From assembly GCA_902571425.1 (NCBI GenBank), contig CACGBZ010000006.1, positions 1-64,000 of the forward strand: 64,000 bases of DNA, read 5' to 3'. The translations under genes and the position numbers were made by a program. Positions 11,122 through 54,349 of this stretch are shown one piece after another. Under the pieces are notes generated by a model. That model was not told where the DNA came from. It saw only the letters and a program-made list of their open reading frames with translations, and ran no database searches. Position 1 is the stretch's first letter. Every line of letters starts with the position of its first letter. This DNA is from an uncultured Pelagibacteraceae bacterium (lineage in GTDB: Bacteria; Pseudomonadota; Alphaproteobacteria; Pelagibacterales; Pelagibacteraceae).

Positions 11122-11820
11122 ATGAAAACTAAAATTTTTTGCGATATAGCAGAGATTAATCTTATTAAAAAATATAATAAAAAAAAAATAGTAAAAGGTT
11201 TTACAACAAATCCTAGTCTGATGAGAAAGGCAGGGGCAAAAAATTATGAGTTATATGCAAAAAGTATATTAAATATTTCAAAAAATAAACCAGTTTCATT
11301 TGAAGTATTTGGTGACGATTATAAATCAATGATGGAGCAGGCTTTAAAAATAAATAGTTGGGGAAGAAATATTTTTGTTAAGATACCAGTGGTTAATTCT
11401 AAAGGTCAATTTACAGGAAAAATAATTAGAGATTTAAACCAAAAAAAAATTAAATTAAATATAACAGCAGTTTATTCATCTATTCAAACAAAAAAAATAT
11501 TAAAAATTATTGATAAAAAAACTAAAGTTATTATTTCAATTTTTGCTGGAAGAGCAGCAGACTCAGGTAAAGATCCAATACCTGAATTTAAAAAAAGTAT
11601 TTTAAGTGCAAAAAAATTTAAAAATGTTGAAATACTTTGGGCGAGTGTAAGAGAACCATATAACTTCACACAAGCAAAGAAAATTGGATGCCATATAATA
11701 ACGACACCCCCTAAAATTATTGATCAAATTGAAAGATTCGGAAAATCATTAAAGTCTTTAACGATTGAAACTGTTAAAGGATTTTTAGTCGATAGTAAAA
11801 AGTCAAAGTTTAAAATTTAA
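11122..11820 (+). CDS. Transaldolase family protein
   Basis: KIFCDIAEINLIKKYN...VKGFTTNPSLM...NITAVYS...SIFAGRAADSGKDP. Confidence 0.88.
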   Translation: MKTKIFCDIAEINLIKKYNKKKIVKGFTTNPSLMRKAGAKNYELYAKSILNISKNKPVSFEVFGDDYKSMMEQALKINSWGRNIFVKIPVVNSKGQFTGKIIRDLNQKKIKLNITAVYSSIQTKKILKIIDKKTKVIISIFAGRAADSGKDPIPEFKKSILSAKKFKNVEILWASVREPYNFTQAKKIGCHIITTPPKIIDQIERFGKSLKSLTIETVKGFLVDSKKSKFKI

Positions 11821-13072: not shown

Positions 13073-13149
<77 letters not shown>

Positions 13150-13155
13150 ATATTC

Positions 13156-13350
13156 TTAAATTCTATTCTTAAGTTTACTTAATTTTTTAACTCTTTTAAT
13201 ATTTTCTTGTAGAATTCTTTTCTTCTTTTCTGAGGGTTTTTCATAAGTATTCTTTAACTTTATAATTTTAAAGAAACCGTCTCTCTGAAGCTTTCTTTTT
13301 AAAACTCTTAAAGCTTGCTCTATATTATTATCTTTAACTTCTATTTTAAT
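13156..13350 (-). CDS. rpsU: 30S ribosomal protein S21, apparent ATT start codon
   Basis: Reverse strand reads (I/M)KIEVKDNNIEQALRVLKRKLQRDGFFKIIKLKNTYEKPSEKKKRILQENIKRVKKLSKLKNRI*; AGGAGG at 13356-13361; in-frame TAG just upstream, no ATG/GTG/TTG. Missed by the ORF track. Confidence 0.9.
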   Translation of the reverse strand: MKIEVKDNNIEQALRVLKRKLQRDGFFKIIKLKNTYEKPSEKKKRILQENIKRVKKLSKLKNRI

Positions 13351-13355
13351 AACTA

Positions 13356-13361
13356 CCTCCT
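13356..13361 (-). promoter_or_regulatory. Shine-Dalgarno AGGAGG of rpsU
   Basis: Reverse complement AGGAGG-TAGTT-ATT. Confidence 0.85.
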
Positions 13362-13414
13362 AAAAAAGTGGTTAGTTAGCACTTTTATAATTTTATGTCT
13401 ATTATTATTATTCA

Positions 13415-51322: not shown

Positions 51323-53982
51323 TGAAAAAACTTATATTAAACTTTAATTCTAAGGATAGTAAAAAAATTAAAAATCCTAAAAACTTTTTAGGTGGAAAAG
51401 GTGCTAATCTTTCTGAAATGGGAAGAATGGGTCTTCCAGTGCCTCCTGGTTTTACAATATCTACAAAAGTTTGTGAAATTTTTTATAAGGATAAAAAAAA
51501 ATTAAATAAAAATTTAATTTCTCAAATTAAAAAAGAATTAAAATTAATTGAAAAAGATGTTTCTAAAAAATTTGGGGACTTAAAAAATCCACTTTTGTTG
51601 TCTGTGCGGTCTGGTGCAAGAGTATCAATGCCAGGTATGATGGATACTATTTTAAATCTAGGTTTGAACGACAAAACAGTCAAAGCTTTAGCAATTAACA
51701 CTTCAAATGGAAGATTTGCTAAAGACAGTTATAGAAGATTCATTCAAATGTACGGTAATGTTGTAATGGGTGTAGAAGGTTATCATTTTGAGGAATTAAT
51801 TGAAAATTATAAACTTACTAAAGGTGTTTTGTTAGATACAGATTTAGATGAAAGTGATTGGGATGGATTAATTAAGGATTTTAAAAGAACAGTAAGAGAA
51901 AAGGCAAAAAAAGATTTTCCTCAAGATGTTCATGAACAACTGCTAGGAGCAATAAGTGCAGTATTTTTATCGTGGGAAAGTAATAGAGCAAAAGTTTATA
52001 GAAAACTAAATCAAATCCCAGCTGAGTGGGGAACTGCTGTAAATGTTCAATCAATGGTTTTTGGAAATATGGGCGATGATTGTGCAACAGGAGTTGTGTT
52101 TACAAGAAATCCATCAGACGGATCAAATGAAATATATGGTGAGTATTTAATTAATGCTCAAGGCGAAGATGTTGTAGCGGGTACAAGGACTCCTCAATAC
52201 ATAACAAAAAAAGCTAGGAGAGATGCCAAAGTAAAAGAATTATCAATGGAAGAGTCAATGCCTAAAGTATTTAAAGAACTTCAAAAAATTTTGAAAAAAT
52301 TAGAGATGCATTATAAAGATATGCAAGACGTAGAGTTTACAGTTGAAAATAGTAAACTATGGATGCTTCAAACAAGATCAGGAAAAAGAACAGCAAAATC
52401 AGCAGTGAAGATCGCAGTTGATATGGTTAAAGAAAAATTAATTTCTAAAAAGGAAGCTGTATTAAGAATTGACCCAAATTCTTTAGACACACTTTTGCAC
52501 CCTACTTTGGATGAAAAAAGTTCAATTAATGTAATAGCAAATGGATTGCCAGCATCACCAGGTGCAGCCAGTGGTAAAGTTGTATTTACGTCAGAAGAGG
52601 CTGAAAGATTAACCGCAATGATGCAAGATACAATTTTGGTTAGAGTAGAGACCTCTCCAGAAGATATACAAGGAATGCATGCTGCTAAAGGAATTTTAAC
52701 TGCCAGAGGAGGAATGACAAGTCATGCAGCTGTTGTTGCGAGAGGTATGGGTAGACCATGTGTATCAGGATCAAGTGAAATTGATATAAACTATGAAAAT
52801 AAATCTTTTAAAACCTCTTCAATGGAGATTAAAGAAGGAGACATAATCACTATTGATGGCTCAACTGGAAGAATTATTGCTGGAAGTGTTTCAACAGTCA
52901 AGCCTGAAATATCTGGTGATTTTTCCAAGTTAATGTCTTGGGCAGATAGTTTTAGGAAATTAAAAGTAAGAACAAATTCTGAAACTCCAAAAGATACCAA
53001 AACAGCAAAAGATTTTGGTGCAGAGGGTATTGGGCTATGCAGAACTGAACATATGTTTTTTGATGAAGAACGAATTTTGTCTGTTAGAGAAATGATATTA
53101 TCTAAAACAAAAGAAGACAGAGCAATAGCATTACAAAAACTTTTACCGCATCAAAGAAAAGATTTTATAGATATTTTTAAAATCATGAATGGATTACCAG
53201 TAACAGTTAGGTTGTTGGACCCACCATTACATGAATTTTTACCACGCACAGAAAAAGAAATTTATGAGGTTGCTAATATAGTTAATATTCCAGTTAAAGA
53301 GGTTGAGTCAAGAATTCAAGAACTCCATGAGCAAAATCCTATGCTTGGTCATAGAGGGTGTCGTTTGGGAATATCTTTTCCTGAAATTTATGAAATGCAA
53401 TGCAAAGCAATATTTGAGGCTTTGGTTTACCTTAAAAAAAATAAAATTAAATCTGCATTTCCTGAAATAATGATACCTTTAGTATCTACAGAGGCTGAAA
53501 TAAAAATTATGAAAGATTTAGTAATTAGAACTGCCAGTATAGTTCAACAAGAAAATAAATTAAAAATAGAATTTTTAGTTGGAACGATGATTGAATTACC
53601 TAGAGCGGCAATAAAAGCAAAGGAGATCGCTAAGCACGCAGAATTCTTTAGTTTTGGAACAAATGATTTAACTCAGACTACTTTTGGGATCAGTAGAGAT
53701 GATAGTGGTAAATTTTTAAATGATTATTTAGAAAACAAAATATTTTCTGTTGATCCTTTTATTTCAATAGATGAGGGAGTTTCAGATTTAATTGAAATAG
53801 CAGTAGAAAAAGGACGAAAACAAAATAAAAATCTTAAGCTAGGTATCTGTGGAGAGCATGGAGGAGACCCGGATAGTATATCTTTTTGTTCTAAAGCAGG
53901 ATTGAATTATGTTTCTTGTTCACCATATAGAGTTCCAGTTGCCAGGTTATCTGCTGCACAGGCTGAAATTAAAAAAAATTAA
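51322..53982 (+). CDS. ppdK: Pyruvate, phosphate dikinase
   Basis: LGGKGANLSEMGRMGLPVPPGFTISTKVC...GILTARGGMTSHAAVVARGMGRPCVSG...GTNDLTQTTFGISRDD. Confidence 0.97.
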   Translation: MKKLILNFNSKDSKKIKNPKNFLGGKGANLSEMGRMGLPVPPGFTISTKVCEIFYKDKKKLNKNLISQIKKELKLIEKDVSKKFGDLKNPLLLSVRSGARVSMPGMMDTILNLGLNDKTVKALAINTSNGRFAKDSYRRFIQMYGNVVMGVEGYHFEELIENYKLTKGVLLDTDLDESDWDGLIKDFKRTVREKAKKDFPQDVHEQLLGAISAVFLSWESNRAKVYRKLNQIPAEWGTAVNVQSMVFGNMGDDCATGVVFTRNPSDGSNEIYGEYLINAQGEDVVAGTRTPQYITKKARRDAKVKELSMEESMPKVFKELQKILKKLEMHYKDMQDVEFTVENSKLWMLQTRSGKRTAKSAVKIAVDMVKEKLISKKEAVLRIDPNSLDTLLHPTLDEKSSINVIANGLPASPGAASGKVVFTSEEAERLTAMMQDTILVRVETSPEDIQGMHAAKGILTARGGMTSHAAVVARGMGRPCVSGSSEIDINYENKSFKTSSMEIKEGDIITIDGSTGRIIAGSVSTVKPEISGDFSKLMSWADSFRKLKVRTNSETPKDTKTAKDFGAEGIGLCRTEHMFFDEERILSVREMILSKTKEDRAIALQKLLPHQRKDFIDIFKIMNGLPVTVRLLDPPLHEFLPRTEKEIYEVANIVNIPVKEVESRIQELHEQNPMLGHRGCRLGISFPEIYEMQCKAIFEALVYLKKNKIKSAFPEIMIPLVSTEAEIKIMKDLVIRTASIVQQENKLKIEFLVGTMIELPRAAIKAKEIAKHAEFFSFGTNDLTQTTFGISRDDSGKFLNDYLENKIFSVDPFISIDEGVSDLIEIAVEKGRKQNKNLKLGICGEHGGDPDSISFCSKAGLNYVSCSPYRVPVARLSAAQAEIKKN

Positions 53983-53989
53983 CTTAGTA

Positions 53990-54240
53990 GGGGCGTTCTG
54001 TTGCCAGGTGCCCCAAACCCCGTTTGCTTAATTAACTAAGTTAATTATGCAGCAAGTGCGTAACTTTCGTTAGCAATTATAAATTAGCCCGTTACGGTGG
54101 AACAATACCGAACGAAAGAATAGCTTTTAGTCACCCGTCGAATCTAGTTCACCCCCATTAATATTTAGCATGGTGGAGGTGGTGGGTACTGCCCCCACGT
54201 CCGAAATGGTTATTACGAAATTCGTTTATCGTCGTAGTCA
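53990..54240 (-). ncRNA. ssrA: tmRNA, circularly permuted two-piece type
   Basis: Reverse complement: ...TTTCGGACGTGGGGGCAGTACCCACCACCTCCACCA | TGCTAAATATTAAT | GGGGGTGAACTAGATTCGACGGGTGAC...GCTAACGAAAGTTACGCACTTGCTGCATAA...; outer ends approximate. Confidence 0.9.
54045..54074 (-). other. tmRNA proteolysis-tag reading frame ANESYALAA-stop
   Basis: GCT AAC GAA AGT TAC GCA CTT GCT GCA TAA on the reverse strand; typical ALAA terminus. Confidence 0.85.
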
Positions 54241-54349
54241 AAAAAGACAATTTAATATAACTTTTTAGTAAGTTTTTAACAAGTCATTTCAAGATGTAAT
54301 TAAATTAATAATATTATATAGAAGATAAATTCATAATTAAATTAATTAT

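Follow-up and report, generated by a model that had tools for sequence, protein, structure and literature searches.

Non-AUG start codon behind a strong Shine-Dalgarno sequence at rpsU of SAR11 bacteria, a candidate for feedback control of ribosomal protein bS21

IF3 discriminates against the start codons AUU, AUA, AUC and CUG, and its own gene, infC, is autoregulated via an AUU, AUA or AUC start codon. A further case has been described in Streptomyces, where the GTC start codon of sigR is repressed by IF3 (PMC5472188). In Flavobacterium johnsoniae, rpsU is the only gene with a strong Shine-Dalgarno sequence (SD) and is translated by those ribosomes that lack bS21, which amounts to autoregulation (PMC9976891). 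The residues on which the pocket hiding the anti-SD in Flavobacterium depends are reportedly specific to Bacteroidia.

The rpsU gene considered here lies on the minus strand of the window, i.e. the whole stretch of 64,000 nucleotides that was analysed. Named records that match the window closely belong to Pelagibacteraceae and are for the most part single-cell assemblies, which assigns the window to SAR11. Its 5' end reads TTTTTTAGGAGGTAGTT ATT AAA ATA GAA GTT AAA GAT AAT AAT on the reverse strand, and the segment from 13361 to 13156 comprises AGGAGG TAGTT ATT AAA ATA GAA GTT, the further codons of S21 and a final TAA. The following features were assigned to the locus:

13156 to 13350, minus strand: rpsU, ribosomal protein bS21, 64 aa (MKIEVKDNNIEQALRVLKRKLQRDGFFKI...), from Pfam PF01165 and the sequence
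13158 to 13156, minus strand: stop codon TAA of rpsU, from the sequence
13348 to 13350, minus strand: almost certain initiation codon ATT (AUU) of rpsU, ATT in 137 of 143 loci of the same family and ATA or ATC in the sister family
13356 to 13361, minus strand: SD AGGAGG, 5 nt from ATT, pairing energy -11.5 kcal/mol with a gene median near 0
13360 to 13362, minus strand: in-frame TAG closing the frame upstream of ATT, TTG at this place in most relatives
13362 to 13367, minus strand: U-run just 5' of the rpsU SD, conserved in the genus according to an alignment of 123 loci
13073 to 13149, minus strand: tRNA-Met(CAU) detected by ARAGORN, with the 5' C and the acceptor CGCGGGG as features of an initiator tRNA

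Within the window no ATG, GTG or TTG was found between the in-frame TAG and the conserved IEVKDNN of rpsU, and translation from ATT yields MKIEVKDNN and a product that fits the length of the S21 family. The protein matches the PF01165 profile with an E-value of 1.2e-15 and 57.8 bits against a cut-off of 27 (profile positions 2 to 54 of 55), and S21 is single-copy, with one Pfam match in the whole 1.31 Mb genome. The earlier note had described an rpsU without canonical start, with ATT 5 nt after AGGAGG and a TAG upstream, and both the coordinates and the sequence agree with this description. A scan of 264 kb (the window and 200 kb of the same genome) for GG[A/G]GG followed after 4 to 9 nt by ATH that opens a frame of 50 codons or more and has no canonical start upstream, returned four sites including rpsU; the arrangement of ATH and SD is therefore not readily supplied by chance. 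One other of these sites seems to have arisen by chance in the antisense strand of a transporter gene, and another overlaps a transaldolase-like ORF (11122 to 11820) on the opposite strand.

The conservation of ATT among relatives, which the earlier note had named as a check, was examined in 143 rpsU loci of the same family, including the window's own (L001) and a few duplicates and leaving out one broken copy. The first codon proved to be ATT in 137 loci, ATC in one and ATG in five. GG[A/G]GG precedes the start in all 138 ATT or ATC loci (GGGGG replacing GGAGG in three) and in none of the five ATG loci, for example ACTTTAAAAAAATAT ATG. The distance between SD and start is 5 nt in 129 of the 138 non-ATG loci and otherwise amounts to 4, 6 or 9 nt, and in the ATG members of the family ATG falls exactly at the ATT codon of the window. 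Near-invariance within the genus extends to the two bases 5' of ATT and to the codon after it, and in the U-run upstream of the SD T occupies the positions -15 to -11 in 93-100% of the 123 aligned loci. ATT and SD are also kept at rpsU in other genera of the family (L197 to L211). A pattern scan of 399 genomes of the genus matched in 287; among the matches listed, at least eight, counted by eye, carry ATG, all of them without GGAGG, one carries ATC, and those without ATG carry GG[A/G]GG. The SD and the non-AUG codon of SAR11 rpsU are kept or lost together.

A consensus error at ATT is excluded because ATT recurs in 137 of the 143 loci from many independent assemblies, a non-AUG codon being present in 138. 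AUU initiation, as proposed before, is strongly supported by the conserved codon, the conserved spacing and the upstream stops and indels in relatives, and on these sequence grounds translation of rpsU in SAR11 starts almost certainly at AUU. Gene finders that allow only ATG, GTG and TTG probably misplace the N-terminus of S21. SAR11, to which this ribosomal protein gene with its AUU start belongs, ranks among the most abundant groups of marine bacteria.

The rpsU loci with ATG and without SD form a minority in the genus (L102, L219, L223, L226, L233). In a tree calculated from the gene upstream of rpsU these five loci did not group into a single clade, although this marker is short and the tree not conclusive. 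The anti-SD is intact in two of the ATG genomes (G155, G004), so that its loss is not the general cause of the switch from ATT to ATG; the 16S ends of G385, G408, G082 and G400 were searched for and not found.

In the sister family rpsU reads AAGGAGGGCAGAACA ATA GTT GAA GTA AGT GTA AAA GAT AAT AAC, which translates to MVEVSVKDNN. The start is ATA in 36 and ATC in one of the 37 loci, 34 of which have no in-frame ATG, GTG or TTG before the upstream stop, and the SD, AAGGAGG, reaches about -11.5 kcal/mol. The conserved property is a strong SD combined with a start that differs from AUG at the third base, and not the letters ATT. The SD of the sister family sits in a short hairpin, GCUCUU AAG GAGGGC (L112 to L141, L212 to L218), in which one pair of L216 is changed on both sides from C-G to U-A; the mean fold z of the leader is only -0.72.

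SD energies were calculated for 222 called genes of the window and 200 kb of the same genome, whose starts were called mechanically, so that the percentages are rough: the median for first starts is -0.3 kcal/mol and 1.4% of the genes reach -9, compared to 0.8% of random positions. With -11.5 kcal/mol the SD of rpsU is among the strongest 1% of these genes. The genome is SD-poor despite an intact anti-SD (window; loci L452 to L461), the 16S end being GGATTACCTCCTTT with CCTCC intact according to a full-length 16S match. Since the genome is SD-poor, the strong SD of rpsU is as exceptional as its codon. Taking the intact anti-SD, the few SDs and rpsU as the exception together, SAR11 therefore resembles Bacteroidota.

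No conserved leader structure was detected in the window's family (mean fold z -0.10 for 143 loci; window 0.27), and a candidate stem AAAAGTG/CACTTTT in the rpsU leader was rejected for its lack of conservation in other genera. A conserved motif is shared by most loci of the family, RTGNTANYTA about 31 nt before ATT (about 13375 to 13385 in the window) following a TATAAA-like box; these elements possibly represent a promoter -10 and the transcription start. The tRNA-Met(CAU) gene begins 6 nt 3' of rpsU in the window, and this tRNA directly follows rpsU in 129 of 129 loci of the genus, usually after a gap of 3-8 nt; rpsU and the tRNA are probably co-transcribed. Based on its sequence features it is presumed to be the initiator tRNA. 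Initiator tRNAs usually have three G-C pairs in the anticodon stem, as in E. coli; the stem found here is CAGG-CCTG (CAAGG-CCTTG in 41 loci), and one of the three pairs appears to be replaced by A-U. The linkage to this tRNA does not explain the codon of rpsU because the tRNA is also present behind the ATG loci and was not found in the sister family. ARAGORN furthermore predicted a tmRNA with the tag ANESYALAA, flagged with an asterisk, on the minus strand of the window (53954 to 54266).

The class was surveyed with one rpsU locus from each of 100 alphaproteobacterial families. The starts were GTG in 44, ATG in 21, TTG in 14, ATC in eight, ATA in seven, CTG in three and ATT in two families and unclear in one, the CTG starts having been read from the flanks of loci that the script had left open. 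The 17 ATH codons share one position in the gene, exemplified by IVQVVVRDNN. As controls, S15 of the same class starts with ATG in 30 of 30 genomes, and S21 of other Proteobacteria with ATG in 21 and TTG in one of 22 loci; the use of ATG by rpsU differs from that by S15 with 4e-16 and from that by S21 outside the class with 5e-11 (Fisher test, species not being independent). Avoidance of AUG by rpsU is class-wide in Alphaproteobacteria, comprising about four fifths of the sampled families. Outside SAR11, the SDs of alphaproteobacterial rpsU are no stronger with GTG or ATH starts than with ATG, so that over the class as a whole the choice of start codon does not depend on how strong the SD is. 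A search of the open-licence literature, which did not cover subscription journals, found no prior report of an rpsU with AUU or another non-AUG start.

We consider it somewhat more probable than all other explanations together that the synthesis of S21 is controlled by a feedback gated by start codon and SD. In SAR11 most mRNAs are initiated at AUG with no SD, and this default route would be closed to rpsU, which would instead need SD pairing together with relaxed start codon selection. Two known principles are combined in this reading: where SDs are rare, a strong one selects ribosomes with a free anti-SD, and an AUU, AUA or AUC start disfavours ordinary initiation proofread by IF3. 30S subunits short of bS21 may expose the anti-SD, proofread the start less strictly or both, and would therefore initiate on rpsU and restore bS21, while replete ribosomes would initiate on it much less. 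AUG with an SD would over-express S21 and AUU without an SD would be nearly silent; if either feature alone were indeed harmful or useless, the joint loss of AUU and SD would be expected. The gate would presumably be opened and closed by bS21-deficient ribosomes and IF3. Because of the SD-poor genome, the coupling of codon and SD and the class-wide non-AUG starts, three points absent from the earlier note, control by ribosomes lacking bS21 seems no less likely than control by the level of IF3 alone. Against such a gate, start codon and SD strength are not coupled in the rest of the class, the Flavobacterium pocket reportedly requires residues specific to Bacteroidia, and a few SAR11 genomes manage rpsU with AUG and no SD; these genomes provide natural counter-examples for comparison. 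More tentatively, and with the odds rather against it, the non-AUG start of rpsU may serve throughout Alphaproteobacteria as a sensor of bS21-deficient 30S subunits with laxer start selection, in SAR11 also of an exposed anti-SD, forming a second fidelity loop beside infC. If true, initiation fidelity would serve as a control signal beyond infC.

The main rival to gated feedback, to which we assign about one chance in four, is a static setting of the expression level, in which a weak codon combined with a strong SD gives the needed expression without regulation, AUG without SD is equivalent and lineages drift between both states by compensatory change. The coupled swap from ATT with SD to ATG without SD inside one genus is what compensation predicts, and GTG and TTG, which are only modestly weaker starts, dominate the rpsU genes of the class. 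However, ATT and SD are held with exact spacing in nearly all sampled genomes although evolution could readily arrive at an AUG in a mediocre context, the strength of the SD shows no dependence on that of the start codon in the class, and S15, the gene of another small ribosomal protein, always starts with ATG. Furthermore, SAR11 and about one fifth of the families of the class use codons that IF3 senses.

IF3-dependent control of rpsU, the suggestion of the earlier note, is plausible as such; in its pure form, in which rpsU is repressed by IF3 like infC and the supply of S21 is matched to IF3 activity without any sensing of bS21, we regard it as rather improbable. The start codons AUU, AUA, AUC and CUG of rpsU all belong to the class discriminated by IF3, sigR provides the precedent outside infC (PMC5472188), and ATA or ATC is likewise the start of infC, both in the sister family and for most of the Alphaproteobacteria sampled (L422 to L451, L238 to L245, L250 to L252, L255). 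In the window's own genus, however, infC starts with GTG directly after a TAA, and IF3 alone would not account for so strong an SD where SDs are otherwise few.

Re-initiation after translation of a leader ORF (GTG CTA ACT AAC CAC TTT TTT AGG AGG TAG, stop 2 nt before ATT) is very unlikely: the frame exists in the window and would stop in several relatives at a TAA overlapping ATTAAA, but the upstream GTG or ATG lies 31, 32 or 33 nt from ATT depending on the locus and the frame is not conserved, for which reason leader-peptide coupling was rejected. Initiation at the TTG four codons upstream (TTG GAG GTA GTT ATT), which is in frame in 99 of the 138 ATT or ATC loci and would probably be picked by a gene finder, has the slightest chance of all and was rejected as well, since this codon, frequent as a by-product of the conserved TTTTTTGGAGG, is TAG in the window, CTG, TCG or GGG elsewhere and shifted to another frame in L020 by an indel, since 24 loci are devoid of any canonical start in frame and since a TTG abutting the SD cannot use it.

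Comparison with known systems places the gated feedback proposed here between several precedents. The homologous S21 of phages (Pelagibacter phage HTVC008M, a virus of the same host group, and IMG/VR contigs) starts in the copies checked mostly with ATG or TTG located one or two codons earlier (ATG TCA ATA in HTVC008M), so the S21 protein itself needs no AUU start. SigR of Streptomyces shares with rpsU a conserved non-canonical start outside infC that was missed by gene finders, but encodes a stress sigma factor and differs in codon and purpose. As in infC, an AUU/AUA/AUC-class start stands behind a good SD in SAR11 rpsU; both are genes of the translation apparatus with a start discriminated by IF3, whereas the product of infC is the discriminating factor itself and that of rpsU a ribosomal protein. 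The closest worked-out system is rpsU of Flavobacterium, with which SAR11 shares the gene, the SD-poor genome, the intact anti-SD and the exceptional SD of rpsU (about -11 kcal/mol as a simple duplex score in SAR11 and below -13 in Flavobacterium, the methods being different). Flavobacterium belongs to another phylum, while the SAR11 start is AUU or AUA and varies together with the SD. The platform pocket of bS21, bS18 and bS6 that sequesters the anti-SD, for example by Y54 of bS21, is a feature of Flavobacterium, and SAR11 S21 aligns with chain 7jil_z of F. johnsoniae up to residue 51 and thus short of this key residue. If the proposed feedback is true, SAR11 would independently exemplify, within Proteobacteria, the control of rpsU by a strong SD where SDs are otherwise few.
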